A DNA stretch of 64,000 nucleotides from the NCBI GenBank assembly GCA_025965695.1, contig JAOPWM010000133.1:1-64000 (forward strand), read 5' to 3'. The translations under genes were made by a program, and so were the position numbers. Below are positions 29,099-40,871 of the stretch, piece by piece. The notes under the pieces were generated by a model. The model was not told the DNA's origin, searched no databases, and worked only from the letters and a program-made list of their open reading frames with translations. The first letter of the stretch is position 1, and every line of letters starts with the position of its first letter. This DNA comes from Blastococcus sp. (GTDB lineage Bacteria; Actinomycetota; Actinomycetes; Mycobacteriales; Geodermatophilaceae).

Positions 29099-30088
29099 TC
29101 AGAACCGGCGCGGGCCGGAGTCGCCGGCCCGCGGTGCGGCGGCCAGGTCGGCACGCAGCCACTCCACCGTCTCGGCCAGTCCGGTCCGCAATCCGGTCTG
29201 CAGCTCCCAGCCCAGCAGCTGCCGGGCCCGCGCGGCGTCCAGGGCCGATCGGTGCAGCTCTCCGGGTCGGGCAGGCTCCATGCGGGGCTCGTCGGGGGCG
29301 CCGCAGAGCCCGGCCAGCTCGGTGTGCAGCTGCCGGACCGAGGTCTCCACTCCCGTACCGATGTTGAGCCGCAGTCCCTCCACCGGTAGCTCGCAGGCCA
29401 GGAGGAAGGCGGCGGCGACGTCCTTGACGTACACGAAGTCCCGGGTCTGGCTGCCGTCGCCGTAGATGGTCGTCGGGAGCCCGGCCAGCATGCGCGCGGA
29501 GAACAGCGAGATCACCCCGGCCTCACCGGCCGGATCCTGGTGCGGGCCGTAGACGTTCGCGAGCGCCAGCGCCGTCCACCGCAGGCCGTGCAGGCGATGG
29601 AAGGTCTGCAGCCACAGCTCAGCGGCGGCCTTGCTCGCTGCATAGGGCGATTCCGGAGCAATGACTGCCGACTCCGCGACCGGTGGCGGAGTGGCCGACC
29701 CATAGATCGAGCCCCCGGAGGACGCGAAGACCACCTTGCCGACATCTGCCTGGCTCGCCGACTGGAGCACGGCGACCGTGCCGACCACGTTGCGCAGCGC
29801 GTCCTGGACCGGGTCGGCCACGGAGGCGCGGACGTCGATCGCCGCGGCCAGGTGGCAGACCACCTGGACCTCGGCCGCCCGCAACGCCGATGCGAGCACG
29901 GGATCTGCGACGTCCGCCTGCAGCAGGTCGATGTCGCCGGCGACGCCGTCCAGGTTGGCTGCAGAGCCGGTCGACAGGTCGTCGACGACGAGCACCCGAT
30001 GGCCGGCCGCGGCCAGCGCCGCGGTGACGTGCCCGCCGATGAAGCCGGCACCGCCGGTGACCGCCACCGGCACGGGTCGCCGGGTCAC
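29099..30088 (-). CDS. NAD-dependent epimerase/dehydratase (UDP-sugar epimerase-like)
   Basis: VAVTGGAGFIGGHV; DDLSTG; ASSGGSIYG; SPYAASKAAAELWL; ALALANVYGP. Confidence 0.9.
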   Translation of the reverse strand: MTRRPVPVAVTGGAGFIGGHVTAALAAAGHRVLVVDDLSTGSAANLDGVAGDIDLLQADVADPVLASALRAAEVQVVCHLAAAIDVRASVADPVQDALRNVVGTVAVLQSASQADVGKVVFASSGGSIYGSATPPPVAESAVIAPESPYAASKAAAELWLQTFHRLHGLRWTALALANVYGPHQDPAGEAGVISLFSARMLAGLPTTIYGDGSQTRDFVYVKDVAAAFLLACELPVEGLRLNIGTGVETSVRQLHTELAGLCGAPDEPRMEPARPGELHRSALDAARARQLLGWELQTGLRTGLAETVEWLRADLAAAPRAGDSGPRRF

Positions 30089-30756
30089 CGGGGCGCCCGG
30101 CCGACCAGCAGGTGGTGCGGATGCACCCGGCCGCGATCCAGGCGACGCGCTCGGACGTCCTCCAGTCCGGCCGCGACCAGCCAGCGGGCCCGCTCGTCAG
30201 GATCGGTGAACACGAACTCCGGCGATCCTTCGGTGATCTTCAGGATCCGGACCGACAGCGCCTCCTGCATGGCGTTCCACCCGGCCTTCCAGCGGGGCCG
30301 GGTGGCCATGTCCTTGACGACGAGCACCCCACCCGGGGCCAGCACCGACGCACAGGATCCCAGCAGCGACCGCTGAGCCGCCTCGTCGAGCAGGTAGAGC
30401 ACGTCCACCAGGACGACGGCATCCCACGGACCCTCCGGGACGGAGCCGGACTCGCCGACCGCGAAGTCCAGTCGGCCGCCGGTGAGCGGCTCGGCCGCCG
30501 CTGCGACCGCGATCTTGTCCGCATCGATGTCCACCCCGTGCACCTGCAGTCCCGGCGAACGTCGGGCCAGATACCCGCTGAACAGTCCGTGTCCGCAGCC
30601 CACCTCGAGCACCCTGCCCTTGGACGGGAGCACCTCGACGACCGGCGGGAACGGGCAGGTCAGCCAGCGCACGAGCACATGCAGGCGGTCCCCGAGCGGC
30701 GCCTCCCGGTAGGCGCGGAGCGCCGCCCGCGCCGCGGCATCGGGCCGGCGACTCAT
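30085..30756 (-). CDS. Class I SAM-dependent methyltransferase
   Basis: GRVLEVGCGHGLFSGYLARR; VHGVDIDADKI; DAVVLVDVLYLL. ATG at 30756. Confidence 0.88.
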   Translation of the reverse strand: MSRRPDAAARAALRAYREAPLGDRLHVLVRWLTCPFPPVVEVLPSKGRVLEVGCGHGLFSGYLARRSPGLQVHGVDIDADKIAVAAAAEPLTGGRLDFAVGESGSVPEGPWDAVVLVDVLYLLDEAAQRSLLGSCASVLAPGGVLVVKDMATRPRWKAGWNAMQEALSVRILKITEGSPEFVFTDPDERARWLVAAGLEDVRARRLDRGRVHPHHLLVGRAPR

Positions 30757-31592
30757 GCGGCCGCCGCCACGTCGGCGAAGGTGCCCAGCCGCCAGCCGAG
30801 CCGCTCGACCATCGCCCGGGTCGACGGCGACGTCAGCATGGCCAGCTCGTCGGACCAGCGGTATCCCCAGCCGAACCGGGCGAGGTCGGGCTCCCCCGCC
30901 TCGCCCGGATGGCTGTTGACCTCGGCCGTCACCGCACCCCCGTCGGTGAGCTGCTGCAGCGCACCGGCGAACCGCTCGCCGTCCAGATGCCCTGCTTCGT
31001 CCAGCCCGGCATAGGCGTCGGTGGTGACCAGCGCGGCCCGGTCGAGCCGGCGCCGGAGCCGTCGGGCCAGCAACCGCACCCCGGTGCCCACCGGCCCACG
31101 TCGCCGGCTCCCGGGCAGCCGGACGCAGCGAATGCCGGCCTCGCGGGCCAGGTCCACCACGACGGCGGCGACCGCGGGCCACAGGTGCGTGTGCTGGTGG
31201 GTGTCCAGGTGGGTGACCGGCACCCCGATCCCCCGGACCCGGTCCAGCTGGGCGCGGAACTCCCGGGCGACGTCGTCGGCGTCTATCCGCCCGGCGGCCC
31301 CACGCGCGACCACGGTCCGGTAGGAGAGCGGGAAGCGGCCCTCCCGGTCGACGAGCGTGGGCACCTCGCGGGCCGACAACAACGGGCGGTCCTCCCCCAC
31401 GATCGCCAGGTGGGCGCCGAGGGCCAGGTCGCCGGCCTCCCGCACGGTGGTCGCGGCCTGCTCGAATGCCGTCCCGACGGCGAGCACCGACGTCGAGGTG
31501 ACCACGCCGTGGGTGTGCGCGCGCCGGACGGCGCGGCAGACCCCGGGGGTGAGGCCCATGTCGTCGGCATTCACCACCAGCAGGCGGCTCAC
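30753..31592 (-). CDS. ChbG/HpnK (YdjC) family deacetylase
   Basis: LLVVNADDMGLTPGV; LGAHLAIVGEDRPLLS; THLDTHQHTHLWP; EVNSHPGE. GTG at 31592. Confidence 0.9.
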   Translation of the reverse strand: MSRLLVVNADDMGLTPGVCRAVRRAHTHGVVTSTSVLAVGTAFEQAATTVREAGDLALGAHLAIVGEDRPLLSAREVPTLVDREGRFPLSYRTVVARGAAGRIDADDVAREFRAQLDRVRGIGVPVTHLDTHQHTHLWPAVAAVVVDLAREAGIRCVRLPGSRRRGPVGTGVRLLARRLRRRLDRAALVTTDAYAGLDEAGHLDGERFAGALQQLTDGGAVTAEVNSHPGEAGEPDLARFGWGYRWSDELAMLTSPSTRAMVERLGWRLGTFADVAAAA

Positions 31593-32338
31593 CGGGCGAC
31601 CGGGGCGAGTCGGGCCAGCTCGGCCCGCAGCTGACGCATCTCCTTGAGCATCCGGCGGATGACGGCCAGGGAGGACAGCGTCGAGACCCCGCGGGAGCGG
31701 GGGAAGTAGTCCACGCCGATCTGCACGATGTGGAAGCCGAGCCTCTGGGCCCGGATGACCAGCTCGGCGTCGATGAACGAGCCTTCGCTGACCGGCCGGG
31801 CGACGTCGAGGACGCGCCGACGGACCAGCTTGAACGCGAAGTTGATGTCCCGTACGCGGGTGCCGAAGGTCACCTGCACCAGGGAGTTGTAGACGAAGGA
31901 GTAGACGGCGCGGCGAGGTCCCTCGCCGGTGCGGTCCAGCCGGTAGGCGCTGACCATGTCCGCCTCGTAGTGACGCAGCACCCGCAGGGCCCGGCCCAGC
32001 TCGAGCATCTCGAAAGGCAGGTCGGCGTCGGTGTAGAGGATGACGTCGCCGCGCACGGAGTCGAACCCGGTCTTGATGCTGCCGCCCAGCCCGCGATTGA
32101 CCGGATGGTGCACCACCCGGATCCGGGAGTCGGCCGCGGCGAGGGCATCGGCGATCTCGGGCGTGCGATCGGTGGAGCAGTCGTCGACGATCACCAGCTC
32201 GTACGCGGCGATCTCCCCGACACCGATCAGCCGTTGACACTCCTCCTCAGCGGCGCGCACGGCCCGCTCGACGTAGTCCTCCTCGTTCCACATGGGAAAG
32301 AAGATCGACAGCAGGTCGACCTTGGCCGACTCGTTCAC
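31589..32338 (-). CDS. Family 2 glycosyltransferase (DPM/dolichyl-P-sugar synthase-like)
   Basis: LLSIFFPMWNEEDYVERAV; ELVIVDDCSTDRTPEI; NRGLGGSIKTGFDSVRGDVILYTDADLPF. GTG at 32338. Confidence 0.9.
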   Translation of the reverse strand: MNESAKVDLLSIFFPMWNEEDYVERAVRAAEEECQRLIGVGEIAAYELVIVDDCSTDRTPEIADALAAADSRIRVVHHPVNRGLGGSIKTGFDSVRGDVILYTDADLPFEMLELGRALRVLRHYEADMVSAYRLDRTGEGPRRAVYSFVYNSLVQVTFGTRVRDINFAFKLVRRRVLDVARPVSEGSFIDAELVIRAQRLGFHIVQIGVDYFPRSRGVSTLSSLAVIRRMLKEMRQLRAELARLAPVAR

Positions 32339-33645
32339 GAGACCTCCACGCCGTTGACGTACGCGACCGTGGCGGTGCACAGCCCGACAAAAAGTACTGC
32401 GAGTACGACCGGCAGCAGCCATCGCGGGCGCCGGTCGCCGGCAAGCACCACCGCCGCGGCGGCCAGGACAGGGTAGGCGTCCAGCGCGTAACGGCCCGAA
32501 CCCATGAAGTCCTTGGTGCCGATGATCGGGATGGCCAGCGAGACCACGGTATAGGCGGCGTAGCCCCAGCCGAACCGTCGCCAGACCGTACGCACCAACA
32601 GCACCGCGCCGAGGGAGACCAGCGCCTGCGGCACCACCAGGACGACGAAGTTCCAGTGCCTGTAGTAGATATGACCGAAGAAGGGCAGCTTGAACCAGGT
32701 GCGCGGTCCCCCACCCTGGTCCCAGCCGGGGGCCCCCTGGACGGTGGCGAAGGCGAGCGGGTCGCCGAACCGGACTCCCAGGTAGACCATCCATGCGAGG
32801 AGTCCGGCGCCGGAGACCAACAGCGCGGCCTGACGCCAGCGCAGGAACCGAACTGCCTGCACCAGGTCGCGGAGCGGCACGGGCCCGGACCGCACGGTCT
32901 CAGGGGCATCAACCGGCATTCCGGCGGGGGGCCCGGGGCTCGCGCCACCGCCGACGAGCACCCCCACGCTCAGGCGGGCGGCGGCCCGGTCTTGGGCGAT
33001 CAACTCGAGCGCTCGGACGACCAGGCCCACGGCCACCGCGACCCCGACCGGCCGGCCCCCTGTCGCCAGCGCGCCGACCATCCCGGCCAGCACGTAGTGC
33101 CGACGCTCGAGCAGGGCAAACGCCCCCAGGACACTCAGCAGGAACGACGCATCGCCGTAGCCGCTGCCGTACAGGAAGAAGCTGTAGGGATAGATCAGCA
33201 GAACGGCCACGGCGACGACGGCGGTGCGGGGGTCCACCCGCGAGCGCACCCAGTCGGCGAACAGCATGACGACGCCCGCCGCACAGACGAGGGTCACCAG
33301 GCCCGCGGCCGTGGAGACATCACCGCCGAGGACCGTGCCGACTCCGCGGACCAGGAGCGGATAGGCCGGGAAGAACGCGATCGAGGACTGCTGGCCGGGC
33401 GTGTAGAAGTAGCCATCCTTCGCGATCCGGTAGTACCAGCCCGAGTCACCCTGGAACCACGCATCGAGCCACCCGGGACCGTCCAGGTACCGGTGGCCCG
33501 GGGTCGGGCCCACGGTGTGGTAGGTCACCCAGGCGAGCACCGACGCCAGCACGGCCACGAGGACGAACGCACCCAGGGCGTAGAGAGGCAGGCGGCGGAC
33601 GACGACCTCGAGCCTTCCCCCCTGCGGCTGCGTCACGACCGGCAA
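32335..33645 (-). CDS. PIG-V/Gpi18-like multi-pass mannosyltransferase-type protein
   Basis: Multi-TM; WFQGDSGWYYRIAKDGYFYTPGQQSSIAFFPAYPLLVRGVG; YPYSFFLYGSGYGDASFLLSVLGAFALLERRHYVLAG, PIG-V-like. Confidence 0.78.
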   Translation of the reverse strand: MPVVTQPQGGRLEVVVRRLPLYALGAFVLVAVLASVLAWVTYHTVGPTPGHRYLDGPGWLDAWFQGDSGWYYRIAKDGYFYTPGQQSSIAFFPAYPLLVRGVGTVLGGDVSTAAGLVTLVCAAGVVMLFADWVRSRVDPRTAVVAVAVLLIYPYSFFLYGSGYGDASFLLSVLGAFALLERRHYVLAGMVGALATGGRPVGVAVAVGLVVRALELIAQDRAAARLSVGVLVGGGASPGPPAGMPVDAPETVRSGPVPLRDLVQAVRFLRWRQAALLVSGAGLLAWMVYLGVRFGDPLAFATVQGAPGWDQGGGPRTWFKLPFFGHIYYRHWNFVVLVVPQALVSLGAVLLVRTVWRRFGWGYAAYTVVSLAIPIIGTKDFMGSGRYALDAYPVLAAAAVVLAGDRRPRWLLPVVLAVLFVGLCTATVAYVNGVEVS

Positions 33646-33782
33646 CCTATGTCAGCGGAGAAATCGAGCACAGGGAGACTCGCAATACGCACCAGATCGT
33701 GGACGGGAATCTGCCCAGTCCACCATGGACCTCCAGCGGCCGGTCACTGCGACCGGCCGCCACGCACACGAAGGAGGACGCG

Positions 33783-34661
33783 GTGCTGCTGTCGGTGCTC
33801 GCCGTCGCCGGGGCGGCGCTCTGTTACGGCGCGTCCGCCGTCTTGCAGGCGTCGGCCGTCGCCCGGTCCCGCCGGACCGACCTGACCGGGTTGCTCGGCG
33901 GCCTCGCCCGTGACCCGCGCTACCTGTGCGGCCTCCTCCTGGTCGCCGGTGGCTTCCTGCTGTCCGTGGTCGCCATCCGCGCGCTACCGCTGTTCGTGGT
34001 GCAGGCCGGGCGCGCGTCCAGCCTCGGGGTCACCGCCGTGCTGGCCGCACTCGTGCTGGGCACGCGCCTGCACCACCGCGAGAAGCTCGCCCTCTGCGGG
34101 GTCGGCGTCGGACTCGTGGCGGTGGCGCTGGCTGCGACGCCGCAGGGACCCGCGGTCGTACCTGGCGCCGTCCGGTGGGCGGTGCTGGCCGCCGCCGTCG
34201 TACTCGCCGCCCTCACCGTCGCCGCTGCCCGAACCCGTTCCTCGGCCCGCGCGGCTGCCCTCGTCGCGGCGCTGGCAGGCAGCTGCTTCGGGTTGCTCGC
34301 GCTGGGCGCGCGTGTCCTCGGTCCGATCGCGCTGCCCGGAGTGCTCGCCGATCCCAGCGTGTACGCGGTGGGCGTGGCCAGCGCCGCCGGGCTGGTCGGC
34401 GGCGCCCTGGCCCTCCAGCGGGGCAGCGTGGTCGCGGTGACGACGACGATGGTGGCCACGGAGGCCGTCCTGGGGTCGCTGCTGGGCCTGGCGGTCGGCG
34501 ACCGACCGGCCGACGGGATGGCCTGGCTGGCCGCCGCGGGCTTTCTCGTGACAGTCGGGAGTGCCCTGCTGCTGGCCCGCTTCGGCGTCCCCGAGGCCGT
34601 CCCGGACACTCCCGGCGATGCCGACCGGGCGCCGCACCCAGCGAGGACCCGCGACGGCTGA
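33783..34661 (+). CDS. DMT/EamA-like multi-pass membrane transporter
   Basis: GTG after GAAGGAGGAC; repeated TM helices with GGALALQRGSVVAVTTTMVATEAVLGSLLGLAVGDRP. Confidence 0.78.
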   Translation: MLLSVLAVAGAALCYGASAVLQASAVARSRRTDLTGLLGGLARDPRYLCGLLLVAGGFLLSVVAIRALPLFVVQAGRASSLGVTAVLAALVLGTRLHHREKLALCGVGVGLVAVALAATPQGPAVVPGAVRWAVLAAAVVLAALTVAAARTRSSARAAALVAALAGSCFGLLALGARVLGPIALPGVLADPSVYAVGVASAAGLVGGALALQRGSVVAVTTTMVATEAVLGSLLGLAVGDRPADGMAWLAAAGFLVTVGSALLLARFGVPEAVPDTPGDADRAPHPARTRDG

Positions 34662-34792
34662 GTCCCGCCTCACGACAGGACCAGGTCGGCTCGCCGATGA
34701 GTTCCGCAGCGCGACGCCGTCAGGACTGATGCAGCGCAGGGCCGTCACCATCGGCGGCGGCCACACCGTGGGACACGACCGGAAGTGACACT

Positions 34793-35626
34793 GTGGAGAC
34801 ACTGACGAGCAGGGACGGCACCACCATCGGCTATCAGCAGACGGGAGCGGGCCCCACGCTGGTCCTGGTGGTGGGGGCCTTCTGCGACCGGTCGTCCACG
34901 GCCTCGCTCACCCCACTGCTGGCACCGCACTTCACCGTCTACGAGTATGACCGGCGGGGACGCGGCTCCAGCGGGGACAGCGACCATTACTCCGTCGACG
35001 GCGAGATCGACGACCTGGCGGCTCTGATCTCGGCGGCCGGGGGCTCGGCCCTGGTGTACGGCCACTCCTCCGGCGCGGTGCTGGCCCTGGAAGCCGCGGC
35101 GCGGGGTGTCCCGATCGTGGGCCTGGCGGGGTACGAGCCGCCGTACACGGCCGCGGACGACGGCAGCGGCGGGTCCGAGGAGCTCCTCGAGGGAATACGG
35201 GCACGGATCGGTGCCGGCGACCGCGACGGCGCCGCTGCGCTGTTCATGCAGGGCGTCGGAACCCCGCCCGAGGTCGTCTCCATGATCCAGCAGGGGCCGA
35301 CCTGGCCGCGGATGCGCGAGCTCGCACCCTCACTCGTCTACGACCTCACCCTCTGCAACGGCGGGATCGTGCCCAGGGAGCGGCTGGCGCGGATCGACGT
35401 CCCCACCCTCACCATCTCGGGCGGAGCCAGTCCCGAGTGGGCCGGCCGGGCCTGCGCGACCGTGGCCGGGGCCGTGCCCGGAGCACGGCACGTGGTGCTC
35501 GACGGCCAGACCCACGCCGTCGACCAGGAGGCGCTCGCGCCGGTGCTCATCGACAACTTCCGCCCCCTGAGCCCGGCACCCGGCGTGGGAACGATGGCTG
35601 ACGGTGCAGCGCCTCACCCGGTGTAG
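34793..35626 (+). CDS. Alpha/beta hydrolase
   Basis: VETLTSRDGTTIGYQQTGAGPTLVLV; YEYDRRGRGSSGDS; YGHSSGAVLALEAA; DGQTHAVDQEAL. Confidence 0.85.
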   Translation: METLTSRDGTTIGYQQTGAGPTLVLVVGAFCDRSSTASLTPLLAPHFTVYEYDRRGRGSSGDSDHYSVDGEIDDLAALISAAGGSALVYGHSSGAVLALEAAARGVPIVGLAGYEPPYTAADDGSGGSEELLEGIRARIGAGDRDGAAALFMQGVGTPPEVVSMIQQGPTWPRMRELAPSLVYDLTLCNGGIVPRERLARIDVPTLTISGGASPEWAGRACATVAGAVPGARHVVLDGQTHAVDQEALAPVLIDNFRPLSPAPGVGTMADGAAPHPV

Positions 35627-35905
35627 GCGTCCTGACTGGCGCCACGTGGCGGAAGGAACAGTCCCTCGCGGAGCAGGCGGACGGCCAGCCCGGTCCGCGA
35701 CGGGACAGCCGGCAGACGCATGCATCGGTGGATGCAGTCGGCCACTGCCCGCGCGGCGATCTGCTCGTCGGAGAGCCCGCCACGAGGTATCCGACGGTCT
35801 GCAGTTCTCGGTAGGTCAGGCCGCGCGGATCCGGGTCCGGCGAGACCAGGACGACGGCTCGCAGGTGGTCGAGGTTCTCGCCGCGACAGTCCGGCAACGC
35901 TGACC
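35614..35905 (-). pseudogene. LuxR-type HTH regulator remnant (frameshifted)
   Basis: Frame 1: CRGENLDHLRAVVLVSPDPDPRGLTYRELQTVGYLVAG; after a shift: DEQIAARAVADCIHRCMRLPAVPSRTGLAVRLLREGLFLPPRGASQDAYTG*. Confidence 0.75.
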
Positions 35906-35922
35906 CGCAGCAGCGCCCCGGC

Positions 35923-37368
35923 TCAGGCCTCGACGGCCGCGGCGTCCTCGTGACCGCGTGACCCGAGGTCGGCCCCCTGCCGGATGAGCTCGGCCTGCAC
36001 GGCACCGATCTCCACCCGACGAGGGGCGCAGCCGCGAGCGGCGGCCAGGGCGGCGCAGACCCCGGCGGCCTGCCCGGTCGCCATCGCGGTGGGCGTGACG
36101 CGGTAGGAGGAGTGCGCCTCATGGGTCCCTGAGATGCAGCGCCCGGCCGTCAGCAGGTCATCGACGTCGCGCGGCAGGAGGCAGCGCAGGGGGACGTCGT
36201 AGGCGTCGCCGGCCGGCACCGAGCGGAGCACCGTCCCCTTGCCGTGGGGGTTGTGGATGTCGACGGGATACGTACCGCGCGCGATGACGTCATCGAACTT
36301 CCGTGCCGTGAGGATGTCCTCGCCGGTGAGCACGTAGCCGCCGAGGATCCGGCGCGTCTCGCGGACGCCGACCTGCACGCCGCTCTGGGCCACGTAGGAG
36401 TCGGCGAAGCCGGGCACGTAGTCCCGGAGGAAGGCCGCGACCTGGCTCATCTGGCGGTGGCTGACCGCTTCCGCGCGCGTGAGTTCGAAGACGTCGGTGC
36501 CGAAGACCTGGGAGACCCGGGTCGAGTTCACTGCGACCTCGCCCGGGTGCGCGGAGCCGAAGAACAGGATGTCCTCGCGGGCGAGGTCGAGGTCGCCGGC
36601 TGCCGTCGCCTCGTCGACCAGGTCCCACAGCCCGTGCACACTGCGCCACTGGTCGGGGTGCTCGCCCACGTAGGCACCGAAAGCTGCGGCGTCGTAGCCG
36701 ACCAGCCGGAACATCAGGGTCATGGGCTGCACCAGCCCGTCCGGCTCACGTCCGATCTCGAACGGGGCCCCGGCCGCGGCCGCGACGTCCCCGTCGCCCG
36801 TGCAGTCGATCGTCGCGCGTGCGGTGACGACGACGGGCCCTGACTTGGTCTCGAACACCACCTCCGCGGCCCGGCCCGGCGTGCGGACCCCGCTGGCGAA
36901 GGCGTGCACCAGGTAGCGCACGCCGGAGGCGTCGAGCAGGTCGAGCGCGACCGTCTTGAACACCTCAGGATCGAACGGAACGGTGTAGCCGGTCGCCACC
37001 GACGGCGGGAGGGCCCCGCCGGCTTCGATCAGCCGGTCGATGACCTCGATGTGTTTTCCGGCGACGACGGGCTCCCCCTCGCCGTGGTCGGTGGGGAACA
37101 GGCCCACGTCGCCCAGCCGCGGTGGCTGCGGGCGGCGCGTGTGGAACGACATCCACGGCATCACGAGCGCCGCCGTCGCGTTGCCGCCCAGGAAGCCGTA
37201 CCGCTCGACGAGGACGACGTCGGCTCCGGCATCGGCTGCTGCCAGTGCTGCCCCGAGACCGGCCGGCCCGCCACCGACGACGAGGACGTCGGCCTCAGCT
37301 GCCTGCAACGCTGAGCGCGGGGGCAGCGTCAGCCGTCCCGCTGCGACCGGCCGGGTCAACGGCGGCAC
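35923..37368 (-). CDS. FAD-dependent oxidoreductase (FAD_oxidored type)
   Basis: ADVLVVGGGPAGLGAALAAADAGADVVLVERYGFLGGNATAALV; TIDCTGDGDVAAAAGAP; DDLLTAGRCISGTHEAHSSYRVTPTAMATGQAAGVCAALA. Start uncertain (GTG 37368 or ATG 37398). Confidence 0.87.
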   Translation of the reverse strand: MPPLTRPVAAGRLTLPPRSALQAAEADVLVVGGGPAGLGAALAAADAGADVVLVERYGFLGGNATAALVMPWMSFHTRRPQPPRLGDVGLFPTDHGEGEPVVAGKHIEVIDRLIEAGGALPPSVATGYTVPFDPEVFKTVALDLLDASGVRYLVHAFASGVRTPGRAAEVVFETKSGPVVVTARATIDCTGDGDVAAAAGAPFEIGREPDGLVQPMTLMFRLVGYDAAAFGAYVGEHPDQWRSVHGLWDLVDEATAAGDLDLAREDILFFGSAHPGEVAVNSTRVSQVFGTDVFELTRAEAVSHRQMSQVAAFLRDYVPGFADSYVAQSGVQVGVRETRRILGGYVLTGEDILTARKFDDVIARGTYPVDIHNPHGKGTVLRSVPAGDAYDVPLRCLLPRDVDDLLTAGRCISGTHEAHSSYRVTPTAMATGQAAGVCAALAAARGCAPRRVEIGAVQAELIRQGADLGSRGHEDAAAVEA

Positions 37369-38527
37369 ATCGCTCTCCCTTCTGCTGGGTCGGCGCACCG
37401 CCGGCCCCGGCGGTCGCCCGTGTCGATGTCCGGGGCAGCACGTCGAGGACGTGTTGCAGGGGTGCGGCGGCCCGGGGCTTGAGCTTCTCGATCCGGCTCC
37501 GTGTCCGTCCGGCGTTGGCCAGACGCTCGTCCCAGAGCCGGTCGACCGCCGAGAGAAGGGGCCCCACCGCGTACCGGTCGAGGCTCCCCGGCGTCGCGAT
37601 GCCGAGGGTCCGGGCGAAGTCGGCCACCTTGCCGGCGTAGGGCAGCGGCAGGAAGGGGACGTCGGAGAGGGCGGCGAAGACCAGGAAGTGCAGGCGCATG
37701 CCGACCGCGAGATCCATGTGCTGCATCAGGCCGAGCATCTCCCGGGGCCCGTACGTGCCGTGGAGGACCCGTGCCCGCTCCGGGGCCACCATGTGGGCCA
37801 GAACGGCGTGACTCTCGCGGACGTCGCCGCGCTCCATGGGAACGAACACCACCTGGCCGTCGTAGCGGTGCACCGCGAAGTCGGCCACCGCGGCGAGCGT
37901 GGAGTGGTAGACGTCCACGGCAAGGTGCGGTGCGGCCCGCCCGGGCTCGCGCACCGACATCGCGATCAGCCGTCCAGAGGTGTCCAGCCCGTTGCGGAGC
38001 AGTGCGTCGGTGGGGAACGGCTCCGGGGTGAGCAGCAGCGCAGGGTCGGCCACCACCCCGATGGGCCGCTCGACGCCGACCTCCTCCAGCACCCGCCTGC
38101 TGTCCTCGTCCCGCACGGTCACCTGGGTCATCGCGGAGACGACGTCGCGTACGGCGCGGCGGTCCTCCGCGGTCGTGAGCGGCCCGACACCGACCGCGTA
38201 GGCGATCGTCGGTACCCCGTTCCGGTGGGCCGTCCGCACGTGACGGAGATACTCCGTCGCCTCGCCGTCGTACAACAGCCCGCCCCCGCCGAGCACCAGG
38301 ACGTCCAGGGCGGCGATCTCCTCGTTGACGGCGTCACAGCGTCCCCGGCGGGCGTCGACCACCCGATCGACGGAATGAGCGGCGCGCGTGTGCGCCGCGT
38401 CGCGGGAGAAGACCACGACCTCGGCGAAGGGCAGCGCCTCGCGCAAGGAGTCGAGCACGGACGTGAGGATCGCCTCGTCGCCGATGTTGAGCCCACCGTA
38501 GGAGCCGAGCAGTCCGATGGTTGCCAT
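37295..38527 (-). CDS. Polysaccharide pyruvyl transferase family protein (CsaB-like)
   Basis: MATIGLLGSYGGLNIGDEAILTSVLDSLREALP; LVLGGGGLLYDG; IAYAVGVGPL; MDLAVGMRLHFLVFAAL. ATG at 38527. Confidence 0.88.
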   Translation of the reverse strand: MATIGLLGSYGGLNIGDEAILTSVLDSLREALPFAEVVVFSRDAAHTRAAHSVDRVVDARRGRCDAVNEEIAALDVLVLGGGGLLYDGEATEYLRHVRTAHRNGVPTIAYAVGVGPLTTAEDRRAVRDVVSAMTQVTVRDEDSRRVLEEVGVERPIGVVADPALLLTPEPFPTDALLRNGLDTSGRLIAMSVREPGRAAPHLAVDVYHSTLAAVADFAVHRYDGQVVFVPMERGDVRESHAVLAHMVAPERARVLHGTYGPREMLGLMQHMDLAVGMRLHFLVFAALSDVPFLPLPYAGKVADFARTLGIATPGSLDRYAVGPLLSAVDRLWDERLANAGRTRSRIEKLKPRAAAPLQHVLDVLPRTSTRATAGAGGAPTQQKGERCAAVDPAGRSGTADAAPALSVAGS

Positions 38528-38969
38528 CCCGTTCTCTCCTGTCGAGGGGCTACCGGTGGTTGCGGGTCGGAGGGACGCCGGCAGCTCGAGCGAGAAGCGA
38601 CGTGTTCGACACCGGGGACCGGGTGGTGGCCCTGGTCCTCGGTGCGGACATCGGGATCCGGACCCGGCCCGGGCGACGTTCAGGGCGTGACCGCGTCCTG
38701 CCCGTCGGTGCGGTGTTGTCCAGGATCCCCGCGGACGTTCCCGGCGCACTCGGTAGAACGGCCGATTTCGGTACGGGTTCGCTCTTTCGCCGGCGCCGTC
38801 GCGTCAGCGCCCCAGGGCGACGGGCCGGCAACGCAGACATGGGCAGACCTCCGTATGGACGCCGGCAGCGGACCGCAGCAGCGTGGGGGCGGCGGCGCCA
38901 CCGGCCGAGTTGCGGGGCCGACCGCGGGAGTGGCGTGCCCGGGCAGCCACGGAGCCGGATGGAGGAGTC

Positions 38970-39188
38970 GTGAGCGAGTCAGAACTCGAGGAGACAGGAA
39001 CCGGGGCGGCCGCCAAGCGCATCGGTCAGGCGCCGACGACCACGGACGTGACCGATCCGGAGCGGTCCTCCCGGAACACCGCTGCCGGCTCCGGGTCCGA
39101 GCCCGGCGAGGGTCCCGTTCACCCGGACGCCGATGAGGGGGTGGACCCCTCCGCCAGCATCGAGCCCCACAACGAGGGGCTGGTCTGA
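38970..39188 (+). CDS. Small acidic low-complexity hypothetical protein
   Basis: GTG after GGAGGAG; VSESELEETGTGAAAKRIGQAPTTTDVTDPERSSRNTAAGSGSEPGEGPVHPDADEGVDPSASIEPHNEGLV. Confidence 0.5.
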   Translation: MSESELEETGTGAAAKRIGQAPTTTDVTDPERSSRNTAAGSGSEPGEGPVHPDADEGVDPSASIEPHNEGLV

Positions 39189-39209
39189 CCCACCTCGTCG
39201 GGCCAACGC

Positions 39210-40871
39210 TCAGTCGGCGTCGGCCCAGGACTCCACGACCGAGACGTCGAGGGGGAAGTCGACGGGGAACCCGCCGAACAGCAGACGGCCCGCCGTGTCC
39301 GCGGCGTGGCGTACCTCCTCGACGACGGCCTCGGCCAGGTGCTCGGGTGCGTGGACGACCACCTCGTCATGGAGGAAGAAGACGAGGTGCGGTCGCTCGC
39401 TCACCGTCCCGGTGCCGCCCAGTCGCCACAGCCGGTTGCGGAGATCGGCCAGCCAGCACAGGGTCCACTCGGCACCGGTGCCCTGGACGACGAAGTTGCG
39501 GGTGAACCGCCCCCAGGCGCGGCGGGCGCGGTCGCGCTCCTCTTTCGACCCCCCGTCGTCGGAGGGCTCGCCGAACTCGACCGGACGCTCCACCCAGGCA
39601 CCCGTGGGGGCCGGGGCCCCGCGGCCGAGCAGTGTGTGCACCACCTCGCCGCGTTCCCCCGCGCGGGCGGCCTCCTCCACCAGCGCGATGGCCCGGGGAT
39701 ACCTCCGGGCCAGCCGGGGCATCATGCGTCCGCTCTCGCCCCGGGTGCCGCCGTACATCGCCCCGAGCATGCCGACCTTGGCCTCGGCCCGGGTCGCCAC
39801 TGCGCCGCCGGCAACCATGCCCTGATAGAGGTCGGACGACCGCGCCGCCTCGGCCATGGCCGAGTCCGCGCTCATGCCCGCGAGGACGCGCGGTTCCAAC
39901 TGAGCGACGTCGGCGACGACGAAGCGCCATCCGTCGTCGGCGACCGCCGCCGGGCGCACCTGCGTGGGGACCGACAGCGCGCCGCCCCCGTTGGACGCCC
40001 ATCGCCCGGTCACCACACCACCGGGCAGGAAGTACGACCGGAACCGGCCGTCCCTGACCCAGGTGTCCAGCCAGTTCCAGCCGTTGGCCTGGAGCAGCCG
40101 GGACAGCTTCTTGTACTCGAGCAGGGCCGGGATACCGGGGTGCTCGATCTGCTCGAGCGTCCAGGAGCGGGTATCGCTCACCGGCAGCCCCGCGGCCTGC
40201 AGCGCGCGCAGGACTTCGCCGGGCGAGTCGGGATTCAGGCCCGGGGCCCGGAACGCCGCACGGATCTCCGCCGACAGCCGCTCGAGCACCGCCGGTCGCC
40301 CGCCGGGCACCGGCCGGGGGCCCAGCAGTTCGGTCAGCAGCCGCTCGTGCACGTCGGCCCGCCACGGCAACCCGGCATGCGCCATCTCGGCGGCCACGAG
40401 CGCACCGGAGGACTCGGCTGCGAGCAGCAGACCGAGCCGACCCCGCTCGCCCGATGCCGCCACGGCCGCCTGTTGACGAGCGTGCTCGGCCACTGGGTCG
40501 AGGCGGTCGGCAGGGTCCTCGAGGGGGAAGAGCGCATGGTCGGTGGCCGTGACGGGCTGCAGCGCATCCCAGCCCGGGCTCTGGGCGTCGGCGAGCAGCG
40601 ACTGGTCCACGAACGGCGACCGGCGCAGGACCGCGTGGGTGAGCCTCAGGTCCGTGCAGCGCTCCACCCGGACGCCGGCCCGGAGCAACGCCGGGTACCA
40701 CCGGGTGGTGTCGTCCCACACCCAGCGAACCGGCTCGAGCTCCCGAACACACACGAACCGGGCGAGCTCCTGGACGGCGACCCGGGTCACCTCCACCTTC
40801 GTCCCGTCGTCGGCACGCTCCTGCGCCTCCACGGCCGCCTCGCCGCGGCGCAGGAGGACGACGAGCTTCAC
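39210..40871 (-). CDS. Family A DNA polymerase-like protein (bifunctional 3'-5' exonuclease/DNA polymerase type, no 5' nuclease)
   Basis: Motif A DVAQLEPRVLAGMS, motif B RAEAKVGMLGAMYGG, motif C FFLHDEVVVH. GTG 40871 (VKLVVLLRRGE) chosen; the 1224-aa ORF extension is antisense to pckG. Confidence 0.85.
   Translation of the reverse strand: MKLVVLLRRGEAAVEAQERADDGTKVEVTRVAVQELARFVCVRELEPVRWVWDDTTRWYPALLRAGVRVERCTDLRLTHAVLRRSPFVDQSLLADAQSPGWDALQPVTATDHALFPLEDPADRLDPVAEHARQQAAVAASGERGRLGLLLAAESSGALVAAEMAHAGLPWRADVHERLLTELLGPRPVPGGRPAVLERLSAEIRAAFRAPGLNPDSPGEVLRALQAAGLPVSDTRSWTLEQIEHPGIPALLEYKKLSRLLQANGWNWLDTWVRDGRFRSYFLPGGVVTGRWASNGGGALSVPTQVRPAAVADDGWRFVVADVAQLEPRVLAGMSADSAMAEAARSSDLYQGMVAGGAVATRAEAKVGMLGAMYGGTRGESGRMMPRLARRYPRAIALVEEAARAGERGEVVHTLLGRGAPAPTGAWVERPVEFGEPSDDGGSKEERDRARRAWGRFTRNFVVQGTGAEWTLCWLADLRNRLWRLGGTGTVSERPHLVFFLHDEVVVHAPEHLAEAVVEEVRHAADTAGRLLFGGFPVDFPLDVSVVESWADAD

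Follow-up and report, generated by a model that had tools for sequence, protein, structure and literature searches.

The 64,000-nt stretch of Blastococcus sp. DNA analyzed here (assembly GCA_025965695.1, contig JAOPWM010000133.1, positions 1 to 64,000; hereafter the window) carries five intact open reading frames (ORFs) on the minus strand at 29099–33645, next to a divergent transporter gene. With a probability of roughly 60%, this cassette encodes a self-contained pathway for polyprenyl-phosphate-dependent amino-sugar transfer resembling the Arn, Lgm and NaxD systems; we infer its reactions, their order, the sugar and the acceptor from the genes. The proposal of an Arn-type pathway follows from a gene set that supplies each needed step, namely a family 2 glycosyltransferase (GT2), a YdjC-family deacetylase with intact residues, a membrane glycosyltransferase of the GT-C type related to PIG-V, and a candidate flippase of the drug/metabolite transporter (DMT) superfamily. 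Judged by family, all four are present in one locus. The genome is a high-GC actinobacterial draft of 4.09 Mb (81.5% complete) in which the window corresponds to contig 213. The features are:

33783–34661, plus strand: EamA/DMT-superfamily transporter, proposed lipid-phosphate-sugar flippase
33637–33782, no strand: intergenic region between the divergent GT-C and DMT genes, probable promoter region by its position
32335–33636, minus strand: predicted GT-C, PIG-V-like integral membrane glycosyltransferase (PIGV)
31589–32338, minus strand: predicted GT2 polyprenyl-phosphate sugar transferase of the ArnC/DPMS class, 249 amino acids
30753–31592, minus strand: predicted carbohydrate de-N-acetylase of the YdjC/ChbG superfamily
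30085–30756, minus strand: predicted class I S-adenosylmethionine-dependent methyltransferase, optional
29099–30088, minus strand: predicted GalE-type UDP-hexose/N-acetylhexosamine (HexNAc) 4-epimerase, optional

The five minus-strand genes run in the order PIGV, GT2, YdjC, methyltransferase, epimerase, and all four junctions are 4-bp GTGA/ATGA overlaps (32338/32335, 31592/31589, 30756/30753 and 30088/30085). An earlier sequence-only reading had described them as a five-gene operon with four such overlaps, and both coordinates and overlaps are confirmed on the sequence. For the PIGV gene, the starts of orthologues favor GTG 33636 over TTG 33645, which opens the longest ORF. Overlaps of this kind are common in dense high-GC operons, and four of them in one genome therefore prove little. 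The tight translational coupling also proposed by that reading draws its support from other loci with a YdjC gene, where the GT2/YdjC overlap is kept in 36 of 36 cases, the PIGV/GT2 overlap in 32 of 36 and the YdjC/methyltransferase overlap in 28 of 33. It is thus overlaps kept across 36 other loci, and not those of a single genome, that show the coupling to be conserved. A sixth member had been absent from the earlier list: the EamA/DMT-type gene, whose GTG start at 33783 is preceded by the ribosome-binding site AAGGAGG, lies next to the set in divergent orientation in 33 of the 34 cassettes whose flanking sequence is long enough to show it.

In a scan with the GT2 as query, using one genome per species, from which the best 80 loci were kept, the cassette is present in nearly half of the loci, and the order PIGV-GT2-YdjC is repeated in dozens of actinobacterial ones. 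Carriers include Blastococcus, Modestobacter, Klenkia, Cellulomonas, Actinotalea, Nakamurella, Phycicoccus, a Pseudonocardiales metagenome-assembled genome (MAG) and several Actinomycetota MAGs; the nearest named relatives belong to Blastococcus (Geodermatophilaceae), with GT2 proteins up to 95% identical. A check of gene order, suggested with the original operon proposal, found it kept in Geodermatophilaceae, Cellulomonas/Actinotalea, Nakamurella, Phycicoccus and the Pseudonocardiales MAG, that is, beyond close relatives. The conserved core consists of the DMT, PIGV, GT2 and YdjC genes, while the methyltransferase and epimerase genes vary. Three loci keep the gene set in other orders: PIGV and epimerase, an inverted DMT gene, then GT2, YdjC and methyltransferase in L071; PIGV relocated behind the methyltransferase gene in L056; and the DMT gene placed between PIGV and GT2 in G385. 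These rearrangements favor a functional unit over frozen synteny. In all 14 genomes tested, PIGV and YdjC occur together and have a DMT gene alongside, contig breaks aside; two of these genomes are fragmented, and there the cassette is divided between two contigs. Across 31 cassettes, the pairwise distances calculated for the five proteins are correlated (r = 0.80–0.88), which is consistent with inheritance as a unit.

The GT2 protein matches PF00535 (3e-29), and its best NCBIfam model is PRK10714 (ArnC; 1.2e-17). With 63.9 bits it falls below the cut-off of 529 for this equivalog model, and it is best regarded as a predicted member of the same class as ArnC, not as ArnC itself. When its profile was compared with the PDB, the top three matches were ArnC (2e-18, 3e-16 and 4e-16), followed by the unnamed glycosyltransferase 3bcv, DPMS (5mlz; 1.5e-13) and GtrB (5ekp; 6e-12). 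The DxD motif (D104-A-D106, DAD) is invariant. These matches place the protein, by sequence, in the ArnC/DPMS/GtrB class, whose members charge polyprenyl phosphate.

The YdjC protein matches PF04794 well above the curated cut-off (3.9e-61; 207.7 bits against 29.7), and its profile aligns with the chitooligosaccharide deacetylase 7vi8 (6e-33). Residues D11, H61 and H132 are invariant in 25 orthologues and align to D11, H61 and H125 of 7vi8. The protein is accordingly predicted to be a PF04794 carbohydrate deacetylase in which the catalytic Asp and the metal-binding His residues are intact.

The GT-C protein of the window has no Pfam match at 1e-3, and the PIG-V label therefore rests on the family, in which PF04188 is weakly matched by 19 of 24 orthologues (best 3.9e-6). 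Its profile also found no match by sequence among solved structures. An AlphaFold2 model (pLDDT 86.7, pTM 0.88) compared with the PDB by Foldseek returned, at ranks 1–28, GT-C fold proteins or complexes containing one (probability 0.8–1.0, near 1 for the best; E values just above 1e-3), among them OST, Pmt4, ArnT, arabinosyltransferases, ALG9, GPI mannosyltransferase I (GPI-MT-I) and PimE. Residues D67, W70 and Y71 are invariant among orthologues. The model thus suggests a member of the GT-C superfamily, with PIG-V weakly indicated as the nearest family. The protein earlier designated PIG-V-like is only a remote relative of PIG-V.

The two remaining genes vary among loci and do not belong to the core. 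The methyltransferase matches PF08242 (2e-14) and PF13649, and its AlphaFold2 model (pLDDT 90.4) has a class I methyltransferase fold; a fold search returned generic class I methyltransferases alone, with no clue to the acceptor, and the match to NodS-like N-methylation is very weak (2.2e-4). Three cassettes (L028, L038 and L057) lack the gene. Among the loci examined it was never seen without YdjC, as expected if it acts after deacetylation, and YdjC occurs without it. The epimerase matches PF01370 (1.6e-56), and its best PDB match is the UDP-glucose 4-epimerase 7ys8 (284 bits), presumably Rv3634c; its catalytic Ser, Tyr and Lys line up with Ser121, Tyr146 and Lys150 of 7ys8. Rv3634c is reported to be a UDP-GalNAc 4-epimerase with catalytic residues S121, Y146 and K150 (PMC5389812), the same numbering as in 7ys8. 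An epimerase gene follows the methyltransferase gene only in the window and in L002, L007, L009 and L032; in L071 it stands straight after PIGV with a 4-bp overlap, and many Cellulomonas loci carry another epimerase (36–42% identical), convergent with the DMT gene.

In the proposed pathway, the epimerase, where present, would supply UDP-N-acetylgalactosamine (UDP-GalNAc) or a related UDP-HexNAc, and the cytosolic GT2 would load HexNAc onto polyprenyl phosphate to give polyprenyl-phosphate-HexNAc. YdjC would then strip the N-acetyl group, leaving a polyprenyl-phosphate-hexosamine, and the methyltransferase, where present, would methylate the sugar, perhaps at the freed amine. The EamA/DMT protein would flip the lipid-linked sugar to the outer face. 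There the GT-C protein would transfer the amino sugar onto an acceptor outside the cytoplasm, which is probably a polysaccharide of the cell wall or a lipoglycan. The idea of a dedicated pathway for a lipid-linked, deacetylated or methylated sugar, already present in the sequence-only reading, fits these results and is strengthened by the conserved order, the co-occurrence and the linked transporter. More tentatively, and with the odds somewhat against it, the cassette may produce an actinobacterial surface decoration that has not been described before, in which a hexosamine, free and possibly N-methylated, is placed on a cell-wall polymer through a YdjC deacetylase and DMT flippase. A literature search found nothing directly relevant on a surface amino sugar in Blastococcus or Cellulomonas or on a YdjC-GT2 actinobacterial operon.

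Several points weigh against this pathway. YdjC may in truth act on a nucleotide sugar, a lipid-phosphate sugar or a polymer, and the sugar and the acceptor named here are proposals. Family models support the DMT assignment only weakly: NF038012 scores 20.8 bits against a cut-off of 50, and EamA is weakly matched in 5 of 15 orthologues (best 5e-4). The divergent cassette L078 shows no DMT gene within its 4.9 kb of upstream sequence. Orthologues of GT2 in Acidimicrobiia (60–66% identical) occur without the rest of the cassette, next to an L,D-transpeptidase gene in those that were examined, so that GT2 is not dependent on deacetylation everywhere. The correlated distances, finally, may simply reflect shared organismal history.

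An unlikely alternative is a lipid resembling those of the glycosylphosphatidylinositol (GPI) or phosphatidylinositol mannoside (PIM) type, in which GT2 makes a polyprenyl-phosphate-hexose such as mannose, the PIG-V-like protein mannosylates a membrane glycolipid and YdjC trims an N-acetyl group at another position of that same glycolipid. PIG-V (PF04188) is indeed the sole family matched by most GT-C orthologues, GPI-MT-I and PimE appear among the fold matches and DPMS among the GT2 relatives; yet GPI-MT-I and PimE rank under OST, Pmt4 and ArnT in the fold search, and GT2 scores 70 bits with ArnC against 54 with DPMS. The deacetylase of the GPI pathway has an LmbE fold. A family search of the cassette, with the rest of the genome not searched, found no gene of the PIG-A or PIG-L type, and the flanks vary and contain no lipid-assembly genes.

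Considerably less probable is a catabolic or recycling locus, in which a ChbG-like YdjC acts on chitooligosaccharides, the other proteins perform unrelated envelope tasks and the packing is coincidental. The best solved relative of YdjC being a chitooligosaccharide deacetylase speaks for it; against it, a family search of the cassette found no phosphotransferase system, phospho-glycosidase or sugar-import gene, the GT2/YdjC junction is kept without exception and the genes stay together after rearrangement.

Most improbable of all is hopanoid-glycan tailoring, with GT2 as HpnI and YdjC as HpnK yielding glucosaminyl-bacteriohopanetetrol: HpnI and HpnK act one after the other in the hopanoid pathway (PMC12583986) and HpnK (TIGR03473) is the best NCBIfam model for YdjC, but its 187.5 bits fall under the cut-off of 232.6, GT2 has no HpnI match at 1e-3, the hpnI-hpnK-hpnJ set comes without a GT-C or DMT protein, and squalene-hopene cyclase was found in none of 19 genomes (14 cassette-positive, of which nine are at least 90% complete, and 5 negative; the window genome is 81.5% complete). 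On the missing cyclase, the low HpnK score and the lack of an HpnI match, a hopanoid role was rejected. Together with the remoteness of PIG-V, these results leave the GPI-type or hopanoid analogy of the sequence-only reading without support.

The distribution of the cassette is patchy. The GT-C gene is found in 7 of 16 genomes of the window's genus, and among 297 genomes sampled evenly across the class a strong match was seen only in the window and one other genome (quick search, six candidates scored per genome). Any YdjC protein occurs in 11 of 200 genomes of the order, 8 of them of the cassette type, and in none of the mycobacteria sampled. Within the family the cassette occupies several chromosomal sites: in the window, L002 and L005 it lies close to a DNA polymerase A-like gene, L003, L004 and L008 share a second site, and L009 and L010 a third. 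A search for a clean empty site beside the polymerase-like gene in six cassette-negative members of the genus confirmed that the cassette is missing from that position, and the neighborhood proved too variable for a clean insertion junction to be shown.

Flanking genes bear no relation to the cassette and vary from genome to genome (PEPCK, DNA polymerase A-like, MDMPI, GCS2 and Rieske), giving no clue to the acceptor. In the window, the DMT and DNA polymerase A-like genes stand about 4.6 kb apart (34662–39212), and the stretch between them holds an alpha/beta hydrolase, an FAD-dependent oxidoreductase (35923–37398) and a polysaccharide pyruvyl transferase-like gene (37295–38749; PF04230, 4e-40), the last not found beside the cassette in other loci. 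The DMT and polymerase-like genes are adjacent in L002 (Blastococcus), and the stretch was therefore either gained in the window or lost in L002. The locus L008, titled ‘Bacillus sp. AZ43’ (UNVERIFIED_ORG), has a Blastococcus-type cassette and flanks, and over 5.6 kb of flank its nucleotide sequence is 82% identical to that of B. litoris (L003); its organism label looks wrong. In Acidimicrobiia and related MAGs (L039, L051 and L023), a GT2 gene whose product is 62–65% identical lies directly upstream of a peptidoglycan-binding/YkuD L,D-transpeptidase gene, with argG also nearby in two of these three examples (L039 and L051). A solitary GT2 of the polyprenyl-phosphate type thus neighbors a gene for wall crosslinking. 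Five MAGs titled Bifidobacterium breve (L033, L034, L062, L065 and L072) carry an Acidimicrobiia-type GT2 without the cassette, and their labels look unreliable.

Among known systems, the HpnI-HpnK pair resembles the cassette in joining a GT2 with a YdjC-family deacetylase; unlike it, the cassette has a different GT2 and extra membrane proteins, and the genomes examined lack the hopanoid cyclase. Closer analogues than the GPI and hopanoid pathways are those of the Arn, Lgm or Flm-NaxD type. In the Arn pathway (ArnC, ArnD, ArnE/F and ArnT), 4-amino-4-deoxy-L-arabinose (L-Ara4N) is added to lipid A by a GT2 acting on undecaprenyl phosphate, an N-deformylase, a small DMT flippase and a GT-C transferase. 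The cassette shares this four-step logic; of the solved structures, ArnC is the one closest to its GT2, and the fold matches of its GT-C protein include ArnT. It differs in that the deacylase belongs to YdjC and not to the NodB-like ArnD family, the GT-C protein is PIG-V-like and one full-length DMT protein takes the place of the transporter, and these actinobacteria lack lipid A. NaxD and LgmC are YdjC-family proteins that operate together with a GT2 and a transferase resembling ArnT. NaxD deacetylates GalNAc and is implicated in galactosamine addition to lipid A (PMC6635527), and lgmA-C of Bordetella are needed for glucosamine addition (PMC4993483). With Lgm of Bordetella and Flm/NaxD of Francisella and Acinetobacter, which modify lipid A with hexosamine, the cassette would share this logic; unlike them, it must serve another acceptor, it includes a methyltransferase and an epimerase as well, and its GT-C protein is of another family.

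In mycobacteria and corynebacteria, a UDP-GalNAc 4-epimerase, the GT2 polyprenyl-phosphate-GalNAc synthase PpgS and the GT-C protein Rv3779 place galactosamine on arabinogalactan, with a flippase and a deacetylase described as ‘as yet unidentified’ (PMC9671496). The cassette resembles this route in its epimerase, GT2 and GT-C protein, and its GT2 weakly matches PpgS (4.6e-7). Since YdjC proteins are so rare in the order and mostly of the cassette type, the PpgS-Rv3779 pathway must use another deacetylase, as must the mycobacteria sampled, in which no YdjC protein was seen. If the proposed pathway is correct, a single cassette would contain types of enzyme for flipping and deacetylation, the two steps still unassigned in the analogous mycobacterial pathway, suggesting kinds of protein that could fill the deacetylase and flippase gaps in related pathways. 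In other bacteria, cationic surface amino sugars influence charge, the binding of phages and antimicrobial-peptide resistance. A widely shared and apparently uncharacterized cassette with all steps together would offer a small, testable model for surface decorations of Gram-positive actinobacteria.

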